Shown here one piece after another: positions 36,941 through 56,524 of a stretch of 57,844 nucleotides of DNA; position 1 is the stretch's first letter, and each line of letters opens with the position of its first letter. The DNA comes from Betaproteobacteria bacterium (GTDB lineage Bacteria; Pseudomonadota; Gammaproteobacteria; Burkholderiales; SG8-41). The notes under the pieces are model-generated. The model saw nothing but the letters and a program-made list of their open reading frames with translations, was not told the origin of the DNA and made no database searches. The DNA is taken from assembly GCA_900299145.1 (NCBI GenBank), contig OMIN01000084.1, positions 1-57,844 of the forward strand. The letters run 5' to 3'. The translations under genes and the position numbers were made by a program.

Positions 36941-38119
36941 TCAGACCAGCCGCGTGCGGCCGGTAAGCAGTTCCTGCATCATCGCCTGCTTGAGCGCGCG
37001 GGTCTTGTCGCGGCGGGCTTCAAGCGCGGCGAGTTCGGCGTCCATGTCGGAGAGGACGGCGGCGATGGCGGTTTGCTCAGGAAGCGATGGCATCGTCACC
37101 TCGATATTCTCGATAGTTTTGGCGTTCAGGCTGGGCACGCCAGAAGCCTCGTTGTAACTGCGCCAGCGAATCATTGTGAACTTGTAGAAAACAAACTTCG
37201 CGTTCGCTTCGCTTGAGATTTCTGTGAAGAACAACGTATCCACCGTCCAGAATGGCCTATCTACATACTGGGGAGAATCAATCGTTCCCTTTCGGCCAAT
37301 CAAAACGGAGGGCTGGTCATAAATGTAGGTGTTCGTTCTTCCGATTTCTCCGCCGGATGCGAGAATTGGATACTTCCCGTCAGACGCGGTGATATCGTGC
37401 TGGCTCTTTCCGTGGCGAACTTTGAGCACATCCCCCAACCGCTTCACCTCCCACTCGCCGGTGAAACCGGGAAGGCGGGTTTGGCCGGTGAGGAGTTGCT
37501 GCATGGCGGCCTGCTTGAGGTCGCGCTTCTTGGCGATGAGCCGATCCAGCCCGCCCAGCAGTCCGTCCACATCGCTCAACGCCTCCGCGATGGCACGTTG
37601 TTCTTTGGCGGTTGGTGGCAGTGCGATTAGAAGCTTCTTTAAATTGTCCTGATTGATGTTTGTGTTTGCGCTGACCGAGCTCGCACCAATCAACTTGCTT
37701 CTGAAATTTTCAGAATAGAAACAGTGCCTTTTGAAAGCAATGTCCAGTGCATCGTTGTCACGAAATCGAATTAGGAATCCTGAATAGACCGTATTTGGAA
37801 GGTCTGCCTCCACAACAGCAGTTAGTCCAATCCCCGATGGCTTCACCGAAGATCGAATGAAAATTACATCGCCACGCTTGAGGTCGTATGTTTTCTGTTC
37901 TGCCTCGCTTGTTTTGACAAGGCCAAACCCATCGCCAGATTTGATGCTGCTCACTCCAAAGACATCCATCAGGTTCACGAATGGCGACCCGCGCCCAAAA
38001 GCTTCGCTGTCTTTGTTAATGCCGTTCTTAAATTGTCCAACTCTGCTCAACGGAACAGCGTCCCACTCTTCCGGGATAATCCCCACCTCCGTCTGCTTAT
38101 AGCCCGACCTCAGTTCCAC
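36941..38119 (-). CDS. hsdS: Type I restriction specificity subunit S
   Basis: A 392-residue protein with the two-domain plan of HsdS. The first target-recognition domain runs from residue 1 to about 160, a conserved helix carries EQRAIAEALSDVDGLLGGLDRLIAKKRDLKQ-like sequence, then a second recognition domain and a matching helix (EQTAIAAVLSDMDAELAALEA) ending in LLTGRTRLV. The repeat of QxLLTGxTRL after each half is typical. The GTG start overlaps the hsdM end by 10 bp. The target site cannot be predicted from sequence alone. Confidence 0.93.
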   Translation of the reverse strand: MELRSGYKQTEVGIIPEEWDAVPLSRVGQFKNGINKDSEAFGRGSPFVNLMDVFGVSSIKSGDGFGLVKTSEAEQKTYDLKRGDVIFIRSSVKPSGIGLTAVVEADLPNTVYSGFLIRFRDNDALDIAFKRHCFYSENFRSKLIGASSVSANTNINQDNLKKLLIALPPTAKEQRAIAEALSDVDGLLGGLDRLIAKKRDLKQAAMQQLLTGQTRLPGFTGEWEVKRLGDVLKVRHGKSQHDITASDGKYPILASGGEIGRTNTYIYDQPSVLIGRKGTIDSPQYVDRPFWTVDTLFFTEISSEANAKFVFYKFTMIRWRSYNEASGVPSLNAKTIENIEVTMPSLPEQTAIAAVLSDMDAELAALEARRDKTRALKQAMMQELLTGRTRLV

Positions 38120-40632
38120 ACCGCCCCCATCTTCTTGAGATGCTCCGTAACGCGGGCGGCGATCGTCTCCACTTCACCCTCAAGCTCAGGCATCGGCATC
38201 GCATAACGTTCCGCCAGTTGGCGTATGCGCCCGGTCAGCGTTTGTGACACACGATCCAGTTCGCCCTGCACGGCAGCGGCGAGCGTCGCCAGCCACTTGT
38301 CGTCCACCACCAGCGTTTTCACCTCGCCCTCGCTGAGCTTGCTGTATTTCGCTGCGAGTTTTTCTTCCAGCGCTTCCTCGGCCGCCCTGATTGCCGCTTT
38401 GCTGTCGGCCTGCTGATCGAGCAGCTTGTCATAGGCCATTAGCGCCGCGCGCTCCTCGGCATCGTCCGCGTTCTTGCCAATGTCCTTGAGCCGCGCCTTG
38501 ATCGCCTTGGCGGAGATCTTTTGTTTGTCGCCCTCGCCCTCAACCACTTCGGCGAGCAGGCCGCTTTCATCCCCATCTGTGCCGCTTTGCTCCTCGCGCT
38601 GTTCGTCGAGTTGCTGCTCGATGGCCGCGAGTTCCGCTTCCAGCGCCGCGATGGCATCGCGCTCGGCGGCAAAATATCGGTCGATCACCAGCACCGCCGG
38701 CACCAGGTCGGCCTTGAAGCGCCGCTTGCCGCGCCGGAAATCCTCCTTCTCCGGCCACACCAGTTTGTTGTCCTTGTTCTTCACCTGCCGGATCTCGCGC
38801 GGCTTCGCCCCTTCCTGCCAGCCGACGGCGGCGATGAGGTAGGCGTCGTCCTGCAACGATTCAGCGCAGTAGTCCATCAGGTGCTGGTAGATGTCGTAGG
38901 CATCGACCAGCGGCGCGGCCTTGAAGTCGGCCAGCAGGCTTTCGGACAGGGTTTCGATCAGCGCCTTGGGGTGGCCGTCCTTGCCGAAGGCTTTCATCGC
39001 AGGCGTGTGGGTGGCGCGCCACTGCGCAAACAGCCCGGTTACGCGCTGATGAAACGCGGTGAACTCGTCGTGGCCGAAGATCGCGGCTTTGACTTCGTTC
39101 AGCGGCAGCTTCAGTTTTGAATAGCCGGGGCGCTCAGTTGCGTGCACCTTCTCAAACAGCGCAGCGCGCAGCGCCGGCATGACCTTCCAGTAGTCCTTGA
39201 ACACATCGAGGTCGCGCTCGGGTATGCCGCCGCGCAGGTGGCCGTCGATGTCCTGCAGGTCTTCGGGCTCGCTGCTGTCGATGTAGCGCGGCAGGTTGAG
39301 GTTGTAGTCGTTTTTGGGGTCGGCGATTTCGTCGCGGGGCACCATCCGCGCATAGCGCGGGTCGCTCTCGTCCTGCTTGCGGAAGGTGTCAACGATTCGG
39401 TGGATATCCTGATCGCGCAGGCGGTTCTTGGGGCCGTCCTTGCGGAAGCCCTTGCTGGCGTCAATCATTAACACGCCACGGCGCGCGGCGGCATTTTCCT
39501 TGTCCAGCACCAGGATGCAGGCGGGAATGCCGGTGCCGTAAAACAGGTTCGCGGGCAGGCCGATGATGCCTTTGAGCAGGCCCGACTGAACGAGATTCTT
39601 GCGGATGACGGCCTCGGCGTTGCCGCGAAACAGCACGCCGTGGGGCAGAATGCACGCGGCCTTGCCGCTGCTTTTCAGGCTGCGGATGATGTGCAGCAGG
39701 TAGGCGTAGTCGCCCTGCTTTTTGGGCGGCACACCCCAGGTGAAACGCTGGTAGGCATCGCCTTCGCCGCTGTCGCCCAGCGTCATGCCGGTGGACCAGG
39801 TCTTGTCGGAGAACGGCGGATTGGCGACGACGTAGTCGTAGGTGCGCAGTTGTGCGCCGTCGAGAAAGCGCGGCTTGACCAGCGTGCCCTCGCCGCCGGA
39901 GGCGATGTTGGCGGTGGGGAAGTCGTGCAGGATCATGTTCATGCGCGCCAAGCCGGCGGTGGTGCTGTCCTTCTCCTGCCCTTCGAGCGTGAGGTGCCTG
40001 CCGGCCTCGGCGGCGACTTTCAGCAGCAGCGAGCCCGAACCGCAGGTGGGGTCGTAGGCGGTGGTGGCGGCCACGGTGTTGTCGGGCGAGATGCCGATCA
40101 CTTTGGCGATGATGCGGCTGACCTCGGACGGGGTATAAAACTGGCCCTTGCTCTTGCCGCTTTCGCTGGCGAAGTGGCGCATCAGGTATTCGTAGGCGTC
40201 ACCGAGAATGTCGTCGTGCTCGGCGCGGTTCTGCGCGAAGTCGAGCGCGGGGTTTTCGAAAATGGCGATCAGGTTGCCCAGCGTCTCGACGCGCTTCTGG
40301 CCGTCGCCCAGCTTGTTCGGGTCGTTGAAATCCGGAAAATCGCTGCGCGCCAGGCGCGTGTTGGCGTCGATCAGCGGCTGGATGACTTGCGTGTTGATCT
40401 TGTTGCCGATGTCGGCGTCGCCCTTGAGCGCGACCATGTCGCGAAAGCCCGCGCCCTTGGGAATGAAGATCGGCGGCTCAAAGCCGTCGTAGTCGGCGTA
40501 CTTGTCGGACACATACTTGATAAACAGCATGAACAGGACATAGTCCTTGTACTGGCTGGCATCCATGCCGCCGCGCAGTTCGTCGCACGAAGCCCAGATC
40601 GAGGAATAGAGGTCGGATTTCTTGATGGCCAT
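38110..40632 (-). CDS. hsdM: Type I DNA methyltransferase subunit M
   Basis: An 840-residue adenine methyltransferase. The SAM-binding motif is DPTCGSGSLL (194-203) and the catalytic motif NPPF (271-274); GQFYTPSEVSRI is typical of the family. It is longer than classical HsdM (about 500-550 residues) because of a C-terminal region after about residue 570 with a highly charged coiled coil (about 640-790). First gene of the restriction operon. A 14-bp inverted repeat lies 120 bp upstream. Confidence 0.95.
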   Translation of the reverse strand: MAIKKSDLYSSIWASCDELRGGMDASQYKDYVLFMLFIKYVSDKYADYDGFEPPIFIPKGAGFRDMVALKGDADIGNKINTQVIQPLIDANTRLARSDFPDFNDPNKLGDGQKRVETLGNLIAIFENPALDFAQNRAEHDDILGDAYEYLMRHFASESGKSKGQFYTPSEVSRIIAKVIGISPDNTVAATTAYDPTCGSGSLLLKVAAEAGRHLTLEGQEKDSTTAGLARMNMILHDFPTANIASGGEGTLVKPRFLDGAQLRTYDYVVANPPFSDKTWSTGMTLGDSGEGDAYQRFTWGVPPKKQGDYAYLLHIIRSLKSSGKAACILPHGVLFRGNAEAVIRKNLVQSGLLKGIIGLPANLFYGTGIPACILVLDKENAAARRGVLMIDASKGFRKDGPKNRLRDQDIHRIVDTFRKQDESDPRYARMVPRDEIADPKNDYNLNLPRYIDSSEPEDLQDIDGHLRGGIPERDLDVFKDYWKVMPALRAALFEKVHATERPGYSKLKLPLNEVKAAIFGHDEFTAFHQRVTGLFAQWRATHTPAMKAFGKDGHPKALIETLSESLLADFKAAPLVDAYDIYQHLMDYCAESLQDDAYLIAAVGWQEGAKPREIRQVKNKDNKLVWPEKEDFRRGKRRFKADLVPAVLVIDRYFAAERDAIAALEAELAAIEQQLDEQREEQSGTDGDESGLLAEVVEGEGDKQKISAKAIKARLKDIGKNADDAEERAALMAYDKLLDQQADSKAAIRAAEEALEEKLAAKYSKLSEGEVKTLVVDDKWLATLAAAVQGELDRVSQTLTGRIRQLAERYAMPMPELEGEVETIAARVTEHLKKMGAVWN

Positions 40633-45219: not shown

Positions 45220-46194
45220 CTACTCTGCCTTGGCGCCGGTGGCCTTCACCACGTCCGCCCAGCGCGTCACTTCTTTCTGCACAAACGCTTCAAACTGCGC
45301 GGGCGTGCTGCCAACCGGCTGCAACTGCAAATCCTCAAGCCGTGCGCGCAGCTCCGGTGCTTTCAAGGCACGTGCAATCGATTCATACAGGCGATTGACG
45401 ATTGTCGCTGGTGTGCCCACTGGGGCGTTTAATCCCCAGAACGCTTCGACCGCCACCGGCACGCCTGCCTCGCGCAGTGTCGGCGTTTGCGGCAACGCCG
45501 GCAGGCGCTTTTCCCCGGAAGTCGCCAGCGCGCGCATGCGTCCGGCCTTGATGTGTGTCAGCAGCGCCGGCGGCACCGACAGCAGCATCGACACTTCGCC
45601 AGACAGCAACGCGGTGATCTGCGGCGCGCCGCCCTTGTACGGCACGTGCACCATGTCAACGCCAGCGACGTGCCGGATCTGCGCGAACGCCAGATGCCCG
45701 GTGGTACCGCTGCCGGTGCTGCCATAGGTCAGCCGCCCCGGCTGCGCCTTCGCCAGCGCGAGCAGTTCCTTGACTGATTTCGCCGGTACGGACGGATGCA
45801 CCACCCACACCGACGAAGTCATTGCCAGCATGGTGATGCGCACAAAATCCTTCAGCGTGTCGTACTGCAAATTGACCTGCACGCTCGGGCCTATGGTGTA
45901 GGCGTTGTCCACCGTCAGCAGCGTATAACCATCGGGCGCTGCGCGCGCCACCAGATGCGTGCCAATGGTGGTGTTGCCACCCGCGCGATTATCGACAATG
46001 GTGGTTTGCCCCATGTCGGCGATGGCTTTCGCCAGCACCGTGCGCGCGAGAATGTCGTTTGACCCGCCGGGGGTGTACGGCACGACGATTCGAACCGGCT
46101 TTACCGGATAGGTTTCCCCAGGCGTTTGCGCCTGCACGGCGGCCGCAAGGTACATGCCCATGCAGGCCCCGACGATGCACATGATCGCGTGCAT
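45220..46194 (-). CDS. Bug/TctC substrate-binding protein
   Basis: A 324-residue receptor. The frame is open far upstream but overlaps the SDR gene; the ATG at 46194 begins the signal peptide MHAIMCIVGACMGMYLAAA, cut near VQAQ. Motifs are VPYTPGGSNDILAR, DNRAGGNTTIG, APDGYTLLTV and HVPYKGGAPQ. It starts 13 bp after the SDR stop. Confidence 0.88.
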   Translation of the reverse strand: MHAIMCIVGACMGMYLAAAVQAQTPGETYPVKPVRIVVPYTPGGSNDILARTVLAKAIADMGQTTIVDNRAGGNTTIGTHLVARAAPDGYTLLTVDNAYTIGPSVQVNLQYDTLKDFVRITMLAMTSSVWVVHPSVPAKSVKELLALAKAQPGRLTYGSTGSGTTGHLAFAQIRHVAGVDMVHVPYKGGAPQITALLSGEVSMLLSVPPALLTHIKAGRMRALATSGEKRLPALPQTPTLREAGVPVAVEAFWGLNAPVGTPATIVNRLYESIARALKAPELRARLEDLQLQPVGSTPAQFEAFVQKEVTRWADVVKATGAKAE

Positions 46195-46207
46195 GGGCTT
46201 CGACTCG

Positions 46208-46987
46208 CTAAGCGGTCGTTCCGCCGTCCACCGGCAGCGCAGCCCCGGTAACGAACGACGCTTCATCCGACAGCAGAAACAGCGCGGCGTTGGCAATTTC
46301 CTCCGGCCGAGCCGGACGGCCCAGTGGATTGACGCCGCCGCGCTTGGCCACCAATTCCTCCGGGTCCTGCCCCACGGTCGAGGGCTGATCGGGCCGCGCG
46401 ACGAATGTACGCAGCATTGGCGTGTCCGTGGCGCCGGGGCACACCACGTTAAAGCGGATGCGGTCGCGGCCATAACGCTTGGCGAGCGAGCGCGCCAGGC
46501 CGATCACGGCGAACTTGCCCGCCGAATACGTTGGTGAAAACGGCGACCCCACCAGCCCCGATGTCGAAGCGGTGAACAGCACGCTGCCGCCGCCCCGCTC
46601 GCGCATCAACGGAATAGCCTCGGTGACACTGACAAATACCGAACGTAGATTGAGATTCATCGCGAGATCAAACTGCGCAAAATCTAGGCCCTCCACGCTC
46701 GCCGCACCCGGATGGCCTGCGTGCGCCCACATAAAATCCAGTGCGCCGAAATGCCTGGCGGTATCGCGCACGATGCTGCGTGCGAAGGCTTCTTCGCAAA
46801 GATCGCCCGTCAGTGCCAGCGCGCGACCACCGGCTTGCTCAATTTCACGCGCGGTGTGGCGTGCGCCTTCCAGATCGATATCGACTACCGCTACCGCTGC
46901 GCCTTCCTTCGCAAAGCGCAGCGCTCCAGCGCGGCCCATGCCGGACGCCGCAGCGGTAACAATGCCAACTTTGTTCCCCATTCTCAT
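46208..46987 (-). CDS. Short-chain dehydrogenase/reductase
   Basis: A 259-residue SDR. The cofactor loop is TAAASGMG at 11-18 (Ala where most have Gly), the NNAG motif is replaced by AHAG, and the active site is a Ser in TASTSG (about 141-143), Tyr154 and Lys158 (YSAGK). AVVDID after the second strand suggests NAD preference. It lies between two Bug genes with 12-13 bp gaps, so it is part of one transcript. Confidence 0.88.
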   Translation of the reverse strand: MRMGNKVGIVTAAASGMGRAGALRFAKEGAAVAVVDIDLEGARHTAREIEQAGGRALALTGDLCEEAFARSIVRDTARHFGALDFMWAHAGHPGAASVEGLDFAQFDLAMNLNLRSVFVSVTEAIPLMRERGGGSVLFTASTSGLVGSPFSPTYSAGKFAVIGLARSLAKRYGRDRIRFNVVCPGATDTPMLRTFVARPDQPSTVGQDPEELVAKRGGVNPLGRPARPEEIANAALFLLSDEASFVTGAALPVDGGTTA

Positions 46988-46999
46988 ACTGATGTTTCC

Positions 47000-48025
47000 T
47001 TACTCGGGCTTGATGCCTGCAGCGGCAATAATGGTTTTCCAGCGCTGCGTTTCTTCCGCGAAATAGCGGTTGGCATCTTCCGGCGTGCCGCCCATCGGGA
47101 TGCCGTGCAGTTGCTTGAAGCGCTCCTGCATCTGCGGCGTGCGCAAGGCATTGCCCGCGACCTCGTTGATACGCCGCACGATATTTGCCGCTGTCGCGCG
47201 TGGTGCAGCCATTGCGTACCAGACCGAGGATTCATAGCCTTTTACGCCCGCTTCGTCGAGCGTCGGAATATCCGGCCAGCCTGGCAACCGCGACTTGGTG
47301 CCCACCGCCAGCATGCGCACCGTGCCGCTGGTCAATTCGCTGAGATAACCGGGAATATTGTCGATTGCCACCTGCACACGCCCGGCGGCGAGATCGATCT
47401 TCGACAACGCCGCGCCTTTGTAAAACACGTTTTGCATCTGCACGCCCGTGAGCGCCTTGAACATTTCCAGCGACAGGTGGCCGGAAGAGCCGCTGCCGGA
47501 AGACGCGCCGTTCAGTGCGGTGGGATTTTTCTTCGCATAGCCAATGAGGTCGCCAACCGTTTTCACCGGTAAGTCGCGATACACCATCAGCGCATTGGGA
47601 AATTGCCCCAGCAGAATAACCCCGGCAAAATCCGCCGGCTTGTAATTCATTTTCTGGTACAGAAACTGATTGGTGGCAAAAGCGCCGGGGTTGGTCCCCA
47701 TCAGCGTGTGGCCGTCCGGCGTGGCGCGCGCCACCAGTTCGGCGCCGATGTTGCCGGCAACGCCCGCACGGTTATCGACAATAAAGGGCTGTCCGAACGA
47801 TTGCGCCAGCCGCTCGGCCGTCAGCCGCGCGAGGACGTCGGTGATACCGCCGGGTGCCCACGGTACCACGACGCGCACGGGACGCTGGGGCCACGCTTGC
47901 GCGAGCGCGGTGGCAGGCAGCGCAAATGTCATCGCGCAGGGCAGCGCACACACGCTTACGCGCAGCCACCTGCCGCAATGTAGCAAAAAACTATAACTAT
48001 TTGTTTTTATTGAATATTTTCCCAC
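47000..48025 (-). CDS. Bug/TctC substrate-binding protein
   Basis: A receptor of up to 341 residues. Motifs are VPWAPGGITDVLAR, DNRAGVAGN, ATPDGHTLMG and PDIPTLDEAG; HVPYKGxGP is replaced by NVFYKGAAL. The GTG at 48025 has a GGGGAGG site, but its first residues (YSIKTNSY) are encoded by the AT-rich word. Downstream starts (TTG before LLHCGRWLRVSVC, or a GTG) would also give a full signal peptide. It begins 16 bp after the selenoprotein gene stop. Confidence 0.85.
   Translation of the reverse strand: MGKYSIKTNSYSFLLHCGRWLRVSVCALPCAMTFALPATALAQAWPQRPVRVVVPWAPGGITDVLARLTAERLAQSFGQPFIVDNRAGVAGNIGAELVARATPDGHTLMGTNPGAFATNQFLYQKMNYKPADFAGVILLGQFPNALMVYRDLPVKTVGDLIGYAKKNPTALNGASSGSGSSGHLSLEMFKALTGVQMQNVFYKGAALSKIDLAAGRVQVAIDNIPGYLSELTSGTVRMLAVGTKSRLPGWPDIPTLDEAGVKGYESSVWYAMAAPRATAANIVRRINEVAGNALRTPQMQERFKQLHGIPMGGTPEDANRYFAEETQRWKTIIAAAGIKPE
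47993..48012 (-). repeat. AT-rich 20-nt word, copy 11
   Basis: Reads CAATAAAAACAAATAGTTAT on the minus strand, identical to the consensus, at the very start of the Bug frame. Confidence 0.85.
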
Positions 48026-48041: not shown

Positions 48042-49748
48042 TTAACCCTTCGGCAACTGCTCCCAACGCGCGGGCAACTTGATGGCCTTGGTGGTCAGCA
48101 GCGTGTATCCCGAATCAAACGTCTTGATGCGATTGCGCCCCGGGTCGCCGCACACCACCAGGTTGATGAGATCTGGGCTGGGGATAATCGGCACGGTGTC
48201 GTCAGAACCCACGTCGAAGTCTTTGGTAAACAAGCCGAGTTCAACCTTCTCGCGCACGGTGTGCACCTCGGCCAAGCCATAGCGCAGCTCCCATTCCAGC
48301 TCGCGCAGCGGCACGCGGGCGTTGCGCCATACGTAATCCTTGATTGCAGCTTTGCTAAGGCCGCCCGCAGCGAGTGCTTTTGCCACCGGCGGCGCGATCA
48401 GAAACGTGATGTCGTTGATGAAACTTTTCGGCCCGCTCTCGGCAAAAAGGCTCAGGCATGGTTTGCGCCGCGCCTCGATGCAAAAGAGTTCCAGCGCGGT
48501 TTGCGCCCCGGCGCGATCCTCGCGCGTGTAGGGTGACGGTGAAAACCCCCAGTTCAATGTCGAGCCGATGCTGACCGTGCTCGTATTACGCTCAAAGCCG
48601 CGTTCGACATGCAATGGCTCCCACGGATTCGCTGCTTCGTTTTCGGCAAACGCAAACGGCAGCGGGTAGCCGAAGGTGCCCATCTGGCTGCGCCCCGGCT
48701 TGTAGCCCCCGATGTTGCGGATGATGAGGCCCATGGCACGGCCCAGCGCCGGATTCGGCCCGCGCGAGACGAGGCCCTCTTCCGAATGAATGCCGAGCTC
48801 CTTGACGATAGGCCCGTTGATGATGAGATACGGCACGATGCCCCAGGTGGTGCCGATGTTGTTGAGGTTATAGCGCTCGTCACCCAGCGCTTCGGTTAAC
48901 GCCACCAGAATCGGCATGTGCTCGGGCCGGCAGCCTGCCATTACGCCGTTGGCGGCGATCACGCGCGGCGTGGCGCGCAAGTTTGCCTGCGGCAGAATGG
49001 CAATGGTTTCATCCGCGTCGCGGTCGGTGTATTTCAGGAATTCATCAATCGCCTGCGGCGTCGGTGGAATAATCGGGAGTCCGTCGGTCCATTCACGCTC
49101 GGCAAAGTAGCGGTTGATCTCGGCAAGACTGCCCTTGCACACAATTTCGCGCGCATTCCACGCCGCAGGGGATGCCGTGCGCTCCTCGTTCACCGGATCG
49201 GTCAGCGCCGCGACAATCTGATCGAACAGCGACGACTTCACCTTGGCGCGTATCTCGGCGTGATCGATGCCCACCGCGCCCGGATATTCCGCCAGGCGTA
49301 TACCCGGCACGCCAGCACCGCGCGCGGCCGCTTTCGCCACGTTGATAAAACCCGGCACCGTCACCACCACGCTGGGAATGCCCAGCTTTTCCGCTTCTGC
49401 AGCCGGCCGCACCGCGGCCGGAGTGCAGGTGCCTCATCCCCCGTTGCCGGAGATCACCGCGTCAACACCCTTGTGTTTGAGCTGACGGGCAATTTCAGCC
49501 AGCACGTCGCGCTGATACGCGGGCGTGCCTTTCAGCACGCCGTGCGGCAATTCGGTGTAAGGCACGATTTTGATGTTGGGGTATTTCGCCTTGAGCAGCT
49601 CGCGGTACGCCGGAAACATCACGTCGCCCTTGAAATCCTCGTTCCAGATTTCGCCGATGGTCTTGCCATCCAGACTGGCCGGCCGCGCTGCAAGGCCCGT
49701 TTTGCCGACGGTCTCACCGCCGACGGGGCTGATTACGGAATCTTCCAT
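48042..49748 (-). CDS. UGSC-family selenoprotein (TGA read as Sec105) with C-terminal domain
   Basis: One continuous frame of 568 residues, broken only by a TGA at 49436-49434. The context is ISGNGG-U-GTCTPA, matching the U-G-S-C signature of the UGSC selenoprotein family (here U-G-T-C, Sec105 and Cys108), a UxxC redox motif. A SECIS-like hairpin follows the TGA. The N-terminal domain (1 to about 190) includes VDAVISGNGG and GIPSVVVTVPGF, similar to Asp/Glu racemase-type folds by inference. A long second domain starts near EREWTDGLPIIPPTP and is of unknown function. An AGAAGG site precedes the ATG. It is the first gene of a transcript with Bug and SDR genes. Without Sec, a 104-residue fragment would result. 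Confidence 0.85.
49397..49428 (-). promoter_or_regulatory. SECIS-like selenocysteine insertion hairpin
   Basis: On the minus strand, CCGGCCGC (49421-49414) pairs perfectly with GCGGCCGG (49410-49403) around a three-base GGU loop (49413-49411). A 5-bp outer stem, CTGCA with TGCAG, flanks it. The loop begins 20 bases after the TGA. Bacterial SECIS elements have a small loop with G in the first two positions about 16-37 bases after UGA, so spacing, stem and loop all fit. Confidence 0.8.
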
Positions 49749-50792: not shown

Positions 50793-50939
50793 CCCATTGC
50801 CTTTGCCGGCTGGTCCGAACCCGACGCCACCTCGCGCAAGCCCTTGACGTTACGTCAACACGAGGCATACATTGATACCAGCGAGCAGGCGTCGCACCAG
50901 CATAAAATTCGATCCAGCAACGCGAGGGGAAACGAGACG

Positions 50940-51809
50940 ATGGTCACAAATTTTCTGAATACGCCCAAGCGCGCGCGCAAGCCACGTGATATCGGCGTCA
51001 CGTCGCTGATCGACAACGGCGTGCCGACACGCTATTTCGAGGATGTCATCGAGAGCACGCCGGAATTGGTTGACGTGGTGAAGTTCGGCTGGTGCACGGC
51101 CATGGTGACGGACGATCTAGGGCGCAAGATCGAGTGCCTGAAAAAGCACAATGTCGCCTACTATTTCGGCGGCACGCTGTTCGAGAAAGCCCTTTCGCAG
51201 AAAAAGCTTGATGCGTTTTATCAGTTTGTGAAACAGCATGACTGCCAGATCGTCGAAATCTCCGATGGCACGTTAGATATCGCCATGGCGGAGAAGGCAC
51301 GGCACATCAAGGATTTCGCCAGGGAGTTTCACGTCATCAGCGAAGTCGGCAAAAAGGACATCGACAAGGCGGACAACATGCCGGTGTCGGCGTGGATCGA
51401 AGCCATTCTCAACGACCTTTACGCCGGCGCGGAAAAGGTGATTCTCGAATCGCGGGAATCTGGCATGAGCGGCATTTGCGATGCCTCCGGCAATCTGCGC
51501 GCGGGGCTGGTACAAAGCATCGGCAGTTCGCGTTTTCGTATCACCGACGCCATCTGGGAAGCACCCACCAAAAAACTGCAAACCACACTGATCTCCACCT
51601 TTGGCCCGAATGTGAATCTCGGCAACATTGCTTTCAGTAACGTGATCGCACTGGAAACACTGCGGTTAGGCATACGTTCCGACACTTTTCATCTTTACGA
51701 CACGACGGGCGAGGATTTTGCCGTCGCCATCGAGGGCCGTGCGCCATTTCGCAAGCCCGACAATCGGCGCACCGCCGGCTTTCTGGCAGATCGCAAGACA
51801 CGTGCCTGA
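50940..51809 (+). CDS. comA: Phosphosulfolactate synthase (ComA family)
   Basis: A 289-residue TIM-barrel protein of the ComA family, which adds sulfite to phosphoenolpyruvate to give phosphosulfolactate. Typical segments are TSLIDNGVPTRYFEDVIES, VDVVKFGWCTAMV, GGTLFEKAL, VEISDGT and VILESRESG. The ATG at 50940 has a GAGGGGAAA site; the open frame upstream is not used. ComB follows 24 bp later, so the two first steps of sulfolactate/coenzyme M synthesis are present. The remaining coenzyme M genes are not in the window. Confidence 0.88.
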   Translation: MVTNFLNTPKRARKPRDIGVTSLIDNGVPTRYFEDVIESTPELVDVVKFGWCTAMVTDDLGRKIECLKKHNVAYYFGGTLFEKALSQKKLDAFYQFVKQHDCQIVEISDGTLDIAMAEKARHIKDFAREFHVISEVGKKDIDKADNMPVSAWIEAILNDLYAGAEKVILESRESGMSGICDASGNLRAGLVQSIGSSRFRITDAIWEAPTKKLQTTLISTFGPNVNLGNIAFSNVIALETLRLGIRSDTFHLYDTTGEDFAVAIEGRAPFRKPDNRRTAGFLADRKTRA

Positions 51810-51833: not shown

Positions 51834-52541
51834 ATGCCTGCACCTGCGATTCGCATCATTCAGGGCACCGACGCCCCCTACCCCGCCGCCACGGTCAGTG
51901 TGGTAATCGACGTCATCCGTGCGTTCACGGTGGCGCAAATTGCCTTTTTGCGAGGCGTGCGCGAGATCTATCTCGTCAACACCGTCGAAGAAGCCCACGC
52001 CTTCAGGAAACTTCACCCCGATTATCTGCTCGCCGGTGAGGTGGACGGGCTGCCCATCGCCGGATTTGACCTCGACAATTCACCGCAGCGGTTTTCCACG
52101 GCGGATATCCATGGCAAAACGCTGATCCAGAAAACCTCCAATGGCGTCAAGGGCACGCTGCTCGCGCTGGCGGCAGACAACGTGCTGGTCACCGGATTTT
52201 CCAATGCACGAAACACCGCGCAATACGCGCGCGCGCTGACAGCGGGCAAGTCCGGCGCAACCATCAACATCGTGGCGACTCACCCCAGCGATGATGATGA
52301 CCTCGCCTGCGCGGAATATATCCGGGACATTGTGCTAGTCGAAAACAAAGTCAGCGCCAGCGACATCGCGCGCCGCATCCTCGCCGCGCGTTCCGCAGTC
52401 AAATTTTATGGCCCTGGCAAACCCGCCGCGCTCGACGCGCGCGACCCTGAACACTGCGCGCGTGAAACACCGTGCAATTTTGTGATGCAAGTCGATAAAA
52501 GCGTGTCGCCGCCGCGGGTGTTAGGGCACACACTTGCCTGA
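51834..52541 (+). CDS. comB: 2-phosphosulfolactate phosphatase (ComB family)
   Basis: A 235-residue member of the ComB family, a Mg-dependent phosphatase that gives sulfolactate from phosphosulfolactate. VVIDVIRAFTVAQIAF near residue 22 and GEVDGLPIAGFDLDNSP, then QKTSNGVKG, are characteristic. Gene order comA-comB supports the call. Cytoplasmic. Ends 58 bp before the convergent transporter gene. Confidence 0.88.
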   Translation: MPAPAIRIIQGTDAPYPAATVSVVIDVIRAFTVAQIAFLRGVREIYLVNTVEEAHAFRKLHPDYLLAGEVDGLPIAGFDLDNSPQRFSTADIHGKTLIQKTSNGVKGTLLALAADNVLVTGFSNARNTAQYARALTAGKSGATINIVATHPSDDDDLACAEYIRDIVLVENKVSASDIARRILAARSAVKFYGPGKPAALDARDPEHCARETPCNFVMQVDKSVSPPRVLGHTLA

Positions 52542-54703: not shown

Positions 54704-56524
54704 CTACTGAAACAGAAAGTAGTTGTCAGTAATCGATGTCGCGGTGACGCCCACCAAGGAAACTAACGTGACATACGCCTGAGGCCCAGGGGCGCCATCA
54801 GGATCGATTTGCACTAGGGCATCTGCTCCGGACTGCACAACTCGAAGCATTTCAGTACCCGCAGCGCGAGGCGTCGTACCAGCATAACCCAATGCGTCGA
54901 ACAACCCCCGCAAATCAAGTCCATCCGTATCTCCGGCACGGGTATCGAAACCAAAAATGCTATCACCAGAATCCCCCATGGACTGATACACGAACAAGTC
55001 GCTTCCCGTGGTTGGTCCGCCATACGCCACGGCATTGCTACCTAGCATGATATCCGCACCCGGGCCACCCACGATATAGTCGTTGCCGTGATCACCATCA
55101 ATGACGTCGTTGCCGTTACCACCGAAAATAGCATCATCTCCACCGCCGCCATCCAGCAAATCATTACCATCCTCGCCGTAAATGGCATCACCACTACCCG
55201 ATGTGCTGTTCTCCCCAGCTTCTCCCATCATGATGTCGTTACCAGGGCCGCCAAAAAGACTGTCGTTGGCAAAACCGAAGATGTAGTAGTAGCCGTCGCC
55301 AAAGATGATGTCGTCTCCACCTTCGCCATACAACACATCACTGCCCTGACGTCCATCAATGGCATCAAATTCACTGCCACCATAAATTAAATCATTGCCA
55401 AGTTCCCCAATCAGAAAATCTATTCCGGCACCGCCAAACAACAAATCGTTGCCTGCCCCGCCCAATATGGTGTCATTGCCATTTTCGCCGTTCAGGTTGT
55501 CGTTACCCGCCACCTGGCCAACTGGAAGCGGATCATTTCCAGTTTCGCCTTCGATCCAGTCATCGCCGTCGCTGCCCGCAATCGTGTCAGCCCCCCCAAA
55601 TCCACGCAAACTATTCGAGACGCTGTTGCCAATAATATTGTCCGCAGTGGTGGCGCCTGTCGCATTTTCAATCACGGTTGAAAATGCAATCGCGATTTTT
55701 GCGCCACTGACCAGACTGAAACTGCCTTGAGTCAGATTAATATTGCCGCTTCCGGTAATTGTGTCAGTGCCTCCGGCGTCCCACAAAGTCAGCACCTCGG
55801 AACCGGTAAAAGTGTAATTGTTGTTGCCGGCGTTATATGACATGTTCGCGCCGTAGAGATATTGGATGGCCAGAATGTCGTCGAGCATGGGGGTCACCGG
55901 ATAAAGATAGCCATTCGACGTATAGCTCATCACAGTGTATTGCCAGTTGTCCTGGCTGGCAGGTAGCGTGGGTTGGTCAGAAAAGGGGTGCTTCAAACCA
56001 AGTGCGTGCCCAATTTCATGTACCAACGTCTGAAAACCATCCGTATCCAGCGCGGGCGAAAAGTTCGAGGAATCCAAACTGTTAAGCCACACATCCCCTG
56101 CGGATGGATTCGTCTGAACGGCAATACCGGTAGCCGGGTTATAAATACCGCCTGGAAAGTAGGCGTGGCCACTTTCACTAGCTGCCCCCCGATTCAGCGC
56201 AATACGTATATCACCAACGACAGTTGCATTGTCTGCAATTTCAGTGAATGTGATGTTGGCGACATTGGCCCACGCCTGAAGCGCAAGGCGCGCAGCAGCT
56301 TGTTGCGTCGCGTTCAAGGATGAATAGCTACTTACCTCGCTACCCGAGGGGTAATCCCCAGTGTCGAAAAAGGCTGTTCCCGACGGGAAGCTGAAAGTCA
56401 ACGCGACAGGTGATCCCGCCCCACTGGTACCCCATCGTACCCCCGAACTCAATGCATCAATGACAGTACTTCCACTCTCGGAAACGAACTGCCACAGTGA
56501 ACCGCCACCAGTAGGAGTTGCCAT
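54704..56524 (-). CDS. Serralysin-like M10 metalloprotease with RTX repeats
   Basis: A 606-residue secreted protease. The zinc motif is LVHEIGHALGLKH (H169, E170, H173, H179) with the Met-turn VMSYTS around 199. From about residue 310 to 500 it has GGxGxDx-type calcium-binding repeats (GGAGNDLLFGGAGIDFL, GGNGNDVIDGDHGNDY), ending in a hydrophobic C-terminus like type I secretion signals. There is no N-terminal signal peptide, as expected for that route. No hlyB/hlyD-type exporter genes are near. An AGGGG site precedes the ATG. Confidence 0.92.
   Translation of the reverse strand: MATPTGGGSLWQFVSESGSTVIDALSSGVRWGTSGAGSPVALTFSFPSGTAFFDTGDYPSGSEVSSYSSLNATQQAAARLALQAWANVANITFTEIADNATVVGDIRIALNRGAASESGHAYFPGGIYNPATGIAVQTNPSAGDVWLNSLDSSNFSPALDTDGFQTLVHEIGHALGLKHPFSDQPTLPASQDNWQYTVMSYTSNGYLYPVTPMLDDILAIQYLYGANMSYNAGNNNYTFTGSEVLTLWDAGGTDTITGSGNINLTQGSFSLVSGAKIAIAFSTVIENATGATTADNIIGNSVSNSLRGFGGADTIAGSDGDDWIEGETGNDPLPVGQVAGNDNLNGENGNDTILGGAGNDLLFGGAGIDFLIGELGNDLIYGGSEFDAIDGRQGSDVLYGEGGDDIIFGDGYYYIFGFANDSLFGGPGNDIMMGEAGENSTSGSGDAIYGEDGNDLLDGGGGDDAIFGGNGNDVIDGDHGNDYIVGGPGADIMLGSNAVAYGGPTTGSDLFVYQSMGDSGDSIFGFDTRAGDTDGLDLRGLFDALGYAGTTPRAAGTEMLRVVQSGADALVQIDPDGAPGPQAYVTLVSLVGVTATSITDNYFLFQ

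Follow-up and report, generated by a model that had tools for sequence, protein, structure and literature searches.

The presented results indicate that the minus-strand gene at 49748-48042 of the analysed stretch of DNA (the window, 57,844 nucleotides of a Betaproteobacteria bacterium assembly) encodes a UGSC-family selenoprotein, and the reading of its in-frame TGA (49436-49434) as selenocysteine, within a 568-residue protein of two domains, is held with high confidence. The source genome holds 19 UGSC places, each with exactly one TGA. The second domain and this expansion, both absent from the first-pass annotation of the window, are the most interesting part of the findings. The frame of the window gene comprises 568 codons, and the only in-frame TGA is codon 105, which stands in the context SGNGG-TGA-GTCTPA. 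That a frame of this length is broken by this TGA alone had been noticed in the first-pass annotation, with coordinates that proved exact. The split which it foresaw under ordinary gene calling, into a 104-aa stub and a falsely started 456-aa protein, agrees with the listing of open reading frames, where the stub occupies 49748-49434 and the second frame, opening with GTG, 49412-48042. The N-terminal UGSC domain covers residues about 5-183 (49200-49736), and the C-terminal domain, here called DGLP, residues about 200-568 (48045-49151). The AF2 model of the protein (pLDDT 93.1, pTM 0.94) gives the UGSC domain an alpha/beta fold, and the conserved U-x-x-C sits just ahead of a helix. The two-domain protein of 568 residues is probably cytoplasmic, and its N-terminus contains no signal-peptide-like stretch by eye.

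The assignment to the UGSC family, which had been proposed from the sequence, stands with Pfam, where PF24696 gives 91.5 bits over residues 5-183 against a gathering cut-off of 25. It does not extend to the NCBIfam equivalog NF041046, whose cut-off of 125 bits is not reached (53.7 bits over the whole 147-position profile), and the window protein therefore represents a diverged branch of the family. NF041046 is matched at E <= 0.001 by all 76 aligned fused proteins. At the motif of Sec or Cys followed by G-x-C, the window protein reads UGTC. Of these 76 fused proteins, 75 have Sec or Cys at position 105, and 75 have Cys at position 108 (codon 49425-49427, minus strand), the candidate resolving cysteine of U-G-T-C; the single exception at both positions is a copy from L094. 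Cys108 occurs also in 18 of the 19 copies of the source genome. It is not absolute, because the short copy C110b of that genome reads UGSS and the Cys form L145 reads CGTS, both lying outside the 76-row alignment. On the Lachnospiraceae contig L094 (3458-3997 and 8068-8616), one UGSC copy reads GGGASG and lacks both Sec and Cys; perhaps a non-catalytic paralogue, it lies beside a normal TGA copy.

Relatives were found by scanning genome contigs with the DGLP domain, which gave at least 567 confirmed stretches, and the best 80 loci were kept. A UGSC domain is present in the fetched stretch of 78 of these 80 loci, in most of them with TGA at the site; L075 and L122 gave no UGSC match in theirs, and the DGLP match of L122 begins at base 7 of its stretch. 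The 78 loci contain 94 UGSC matches, 67 of them fused and placed in alignment A3, and 27 left out. Cysteine replaces the TGA at exactly that position in some relatives, a comparison which the first-pass annotation had called for. There are 20 such Cys forms, from Bacteroidota, Verrucomicrobiota, Kiritimatiellota, Lentisphaerota and Bacillota, and in a tree of 111 UGSC domains they make up one clade (support 100/100) lying among the TGA forms. The root of this tree is a midpoint used for drawing only, and its deep joins are unsure because some long branches meet. Judged by eye, the Cys forms open with signal-peptide-like stretches. Three further Cys forms (L145, L146 and L147) come from the window's own order; five matches without TGA were fetched, three with Cys at the site and two with a degenerate motif. 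The UGSC-like proteins of L148 and L149 (genome G050) have the degenerate ALCNAGITQPT and no TGA, and adjoin DGLP genes with an intact MAGC.

The source genome (5.5 Mb, 158 contigs, 99.7% complete) possesses all of the selenocysteine machinery whose search had been proposed, each component over its curated cut-off: tRNA-Sec (74.5 bits, cut-off 47), selB (442.7, cut-off 242), selA (568.6, cut-off 268) and selD (422.6, cut-off 125), the last being itself of the Sec type, with its own frame reading GGGUGCK. Contig C110 groups selA, selB and tRNA-Sec; on it a UGSC gene runs divergently from selA, and selB is directly followed by a thioredoxin-reductase-like gene. Elsewhere, too, UGSC genes have such neighbours, namely a relative of selB at L059 (by sequence cluster) and selA at L095. 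The presence of SelB follows the form of the protein. In the search, which covered 50 of the 80 loci (49 genomes), SelB was over cut-off in none of the 20 genomes with a Cys form and in 24 of the 29 with a TGA form (Fisher p 2e-9, related genomes being taken as independent), where absences on either side may be assembly gaps. The five TGA-form genomes without SelB over cut-off are G025, G029, G033, G041 and G048, and G048 contains a partial match of 208.5 bits.

The hairpin downstream of the TGA, CCGGCCGC-GGT-GCGGCCGG (49421-49403, minus strand), is a SECIS-like element with a perfect 8-bp stem and further outer pairs; with the CTGCA/TGCAG pairs obtained by folding it extends over 49397-49428. 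Sequence and folding both agree with the earlier description of a perfect 8-bp stem with a GGU loop 20 bases from the TGA, and this small G-containing loop (GGT) at 20 nt falls inside the range of 16-37 nt taken from the same source. A 20-base pattern of the TGA context and downstream bases, composed after the site had been seen, matches once in the window against 0.02 expected. By itself, the window hairpin is not decisive, because 7.3% of 20,000 synonymous recodings of the window peptide attain its stem score (p 0.07). The hairpins taken as a set are far from chance. A stem score of at least 6 was reached by 16 of 19 copies of the source genome and 53 of 72 other TGA forms (69/91 together), and by 1 of 20 Cys forms, with one row left out of the scoring, the first L094 copy, which has neither Sec nor Cys (Fisher p 3e-9 for TGA against Cys, related sequences being treated as independent). 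Compared with their own synonymous recodings, 12/19, 34/72 and 1/20 of the respective groups reached p <= 0.05, with mean z values of 1.98, 1.82 and 0.27; the recodings applied the window's codon usage to every genome, and the Cys genomes differ from it in composition. The SECIS-like hairpin thus accompanies TGA and not Cys. Within the source genome, a single hairpin is found in 18 of 19 copies (C110a is without one), and the loop lies at 17-20 nt in 15 of them, the copies outside this interval being C114 (12), C110b (15) and C100 (26). Among the copies with a best stem of at least 6 and a loop at 16-21 nt, the stem positions show several pair types each, a count in which unpaired cells cannot appear because only strong-stem copies entered it; the loops of these copies are mostly GTG, CGTGTT, GTA, GGT or GGC.

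The Sec machinery, the Cys-containing relatives and the hairpin linked to TGA together give good support to the original reading of the TGA as selenocysteine in a UGTC redox motif. That the TGA is an ordinary stop, arising by nonsense mutation or sequencing error in a gene coding for Cys or another residue, has a negligible probability: TGA is a stop by default, the genome is an assembly and a single hairpin like that of the window could be chance, but one TGA stands in all 19 copies of the genome and in nearly all matches listed in relatives, the machinery is complete, and TGA, hairpin and SelB co-occur.

The DGLP domain, of about 370 aa, contains a near-invariant MAGC motif. In the searches, neither Pfam nor NCBIfam offered a model for the domain, and the comparison with PDB folds gave no clear match. 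The cysteine of this motif (Cys273, codon 48930-48932, minus strand) is conserved in 75 of 76 fused proteins and in 109 of the 110 rows of the DGLP alignment A4, which is composed of 93 of 96 domains from relatives and 17 of 18 from the source genome; the own copy C44 has Gly in its place. DGLP occurs 20 times in the source genome, a 21st row being a fragment, and two of these genes have no UGSC match in the 8.5 kb fetched round each. Nine of the 19 UGSC copies are fused to the second domain like the window gene and ten are short. A separate DGLP gene adjoins eight of the ten short copies, one of these with two DGLP copies, and no DGLP was present in the stretches fetched for the other two (C76 and C89). 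As short UGSC and separate DGLP proteins are made elsewhere, the two domains are best read as parts of one enzyme. The DGLP gene at L147:129-1130 (minus strand) has an in-frame TGA at the position where the 110 aligned copies all have Trp, next to a UGSC partner with Cys; the gene may represent a pseudogene, an error or recoding.

The 19 copies amount to a large expansion of this selenoprotein family. In the tree of 111 UGSC domains they need 16 label changes, compared with 17.8 for shuffled labels, which indicates old, dispersed paralogues and no recent burst. In the sample from the window's family, every one of the 60 genomes contains UGSC, with 1 to at least 48 places each among the matches listed. 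Searched fully, genome G050 of the same family (5.7 Mb, 98% complete, 2% contaminated) gave 58 UGSC matches. TGA is present in 54 of them, and in 51 one TGA is the only stop; a few of these 51 are partial. Full searches gave 40 matches in G080 and 35 in G095. Counts in multi-contig assemblies like G050 could be inflated by strain mixing. Across the order, 16 of 150 sampled genomes had a match, 15 of them over the cut-off, and 4 of the 16 belong to the window's own family. For comparison, the largest total bacterial selenoproteomes given in a 2026 review comprise at least 57 and 63 selenoproteins (PMC13188914). Such expansions can stay hidden, since a standard caller stopping at TGA would split all 19 genes. 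The literature, as judged from listings and passages, with most subscription papers outside reach, yielded no UGSC expansion joined with Burkholderiales or with TctC. In the view of the review, selenoproteins are seldom retained by aerobic bacteria, and rich selenoproteomes occur mostly in anaerobes (PMC13188914). Genes of O2-using enzyme families (TauD, Rieske ring-hydroxylating) occur in the window and at another locus of the source genome. The UGSC expansion beside them, in a bacterium that may be aerobic, bears on this view.

The selenoprotein gene is followed on the same strand by genes which suggest a metabolic context. A TctC-type solute-binding protein gene (47000-48025) starts 16 nt after it, and the two form a probable operon; next on this strand are a short-chain dehydrogenase gene (46208-46987) and a second TctC-type gene (45220-46236). 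The proximity of TctC genes to UGSC genes is only a modest, twofold enrichment, because TctC genes are very common in the source genome: their density is 2.23 per 10 kb in the neighbourhood of UGSC genes and 1.10 in a 400 kb background (44 genes; p 0.001), a background of 20 stretches of 20 kb on large, hand-chosen contigs taken largely from the TctC list itself, where broken TctC genes sometimes count twice (e.g. C76). TctC adjacency was also considered as strong functional evidence, and this background control weakened it. The TctC family as a whole is hugely expanded in this genome, with 707 first-look candidates, of which 150 were scored and all 150 were over the cut-off.

Possible electron donors are encoded near UGSC genes outside the window's stretch. 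A thioredoxin-reductase-like flavoprotein with CxxC is found at 7 of 79 TGA-form loci, which include the own C110 and contigs of Acidobacteria, Alphaproteobacteria and Lachnospiraceae. The profile TIGR01292 gave 231-320 bits, below its cut-off of 343, for the three such proteins scanned. DsbD-like membrane genes adjoin two Bacillota Cys forms, one of which has also a ResA-like gene. Other genes of the window include a ComA-like phosphosulfolactate synthase gene (50844-51809, plus strand), upstream of the selenoprotein gene and on the other strand, with a 2-phosphosulfolactate phosphatase (ComB-like) gene in tandem (51834-52541, plus strand). The minus-strand gene at 54704-56524 shows, by eye, a zinc-protease-like HEIGHALGLKHP motif and RTX-like glycine-aspartate repeats; its codon bias is weak relative to its neighbours, and it was possibly acquired. 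Minus-strand frames at 36941-40632 read by eye as S and M subunits of a type I restriction-modification system.

The window protein is most likely an enzyme that works on imported organic acids through its selenol and is recycled by thiols, and the substrate-specific reductase chemistry proposed for it is plausible at somewhat less than even chances. The active site Sec105-Gly-Thr-Cys108 lies in the N-terminal UGSC domain and the near-invariant Cys273 in the DGLP domain. The selenolate of Sec105 would attack a small electrophilic organic acid positioned against the DGLP domain, and the resulting selenium intermediate may be resolved by Cys108 or Cys273, with electrons returning through a thioredoxin-reductase-like flavoprotein or thioredoxin. 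Since the gene order suggests it, the substrate is proposed to enter through the TctC-type binding protein and the product to pass to the dehydrogenase. The substrates would differ among the 19 diverged copies.

A general thiol-disulfide or peroxide-type redox enzyme, that is an antioxidant or disulfide reductase and not a substrate-specific catabolic enzyme, appears rather unlikely. The conserved U-x-x-C just before a helix and the thioredoxin-reductase-, ResA- and DsbD-like neighbours are consistent with such a role, and a thioredoxin-like fold with a redox role was proposed for a UGSC fusion in 2008 (PMC2398784). However, 19 diverged copies, and 51 single-TGA copies elsewhere, are difficult to reconcile with a housekeeping antioxidant, and the large conserved DGLP domain, together with the probable operon with TctC and dehydrogenase genes, points to small-molecule metabolism. 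In the structural comparison, the UGSC domain was moreover matched best by PurE-like rows and not by thioredoxins, though it may have a thioredoxin fold.

Improbable is a mechanism like that of glycine reductase protein B or fluoroacetate reductase, in which Sec would attack a C-X bond (X being N, halogen or S) next to a carboxylate, form a selenoether and free X. Weak profile matches to PrdB, GrdH, GrdF and GrdB (E 1e-6 to 7e-5) over the U-G-T-C-T region argue for it, and the GrdB-like FarB/FarE offers a precedent for C-F cleavage (PMC10838667). Against it, all curated family cut-offs are missed by far (22-28.5 bits versus 65.45-800 for TIGR04483, NF040795, NF040794, TIGR01918 and TIGR01917), and each profile is matched by only 2 to 7 of the 76 members. 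In the UxxCxxC motif given for GrdB/PrdB reductases (PMC13188914), the first Cys has its counterpart in the UGTCTPA of the window protein and the second is absent. GrdA gave no match in the source genome, in a search which matched in no control genome either, and the genome carries the O2-using enzyme families.

Returning to the selenol-dependent enzyme on organic acids, it is a tentative possibility that UGSC and DGLP represent an unrecognised two-component class of selenol-dependent reductases with a new partner fold, diversified in oxygen-using Burkholderiales into dozens of copies per genome, each with its own substrate, linked to organic-acid uptake and served by a dedicated thioredoxin-reductase-like recycler encoded with the selenium machinery. 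If true, this would be among the largest single-family selenoprotein expansions, in a group of organisms believed to have few selenoproteins. In marine and freshwater metagenomes, UGSC belongs to the most common selenoproteins (PMC2398784, PMC9402790) and is listed in the 2026 review among those of largely uncharacterised function (PMC13188914). The function of this common unexplained selenoprotein becomes testable through its expansion, its partner domain, which is uncharacterised, and the neighbouring genes for candidate electron donors. It can be approached by way of the invariant residues of the second domain, the forms encoded by two separable genes and the candidate donors, and further by the Cys-form homologues, which can be produced without selenium.

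Among known systems, the glycine, sarcosine, betaine and D-proline reductases (GrdB/GrdF/GrdH and PrdB) show local similarity to the window protein round the Sec motif, and several substrate-specific copies per genome have also been reported for GrdB-type reductases. They differ in that their profiles give no match to the DGLP part and the window protein lies far below every family cut-off. The fluoroacetate reductase FarB/FarE of Cloacibacillus, likened here by its published description only, combines within a single operon a GrdB-like Sec protein, its partner subunit and a transporter; in this description FarB is without CxxC and FarE is not a pro-protein (PMC10838667). With the UGSC family (PF24696/NF041046), the window protein shares U-G-x-C, the TGA with a SECIS-like hairpin and Cys-containing relatives, but unlike NF041046 it falls below the equivalog cut-off and is fused to a 370-aa C-terminal domain. 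A further likeness is the fusion of UGSC to a domain named "Unknown_1", reported in 2008 from Global Ocean Sampling data (PMC2398784). The accessible passages of that report contain no two-gene form, electron donors or genomes of 19 or 51 copies. Both systems combine a UGSC selenoprotein with an unknown conserved domain, Unknown_1 and DGLP being likened by description only, and the window gene is a new UGSC-family selenoprotein whose fusion architecture is of a kind already reported.
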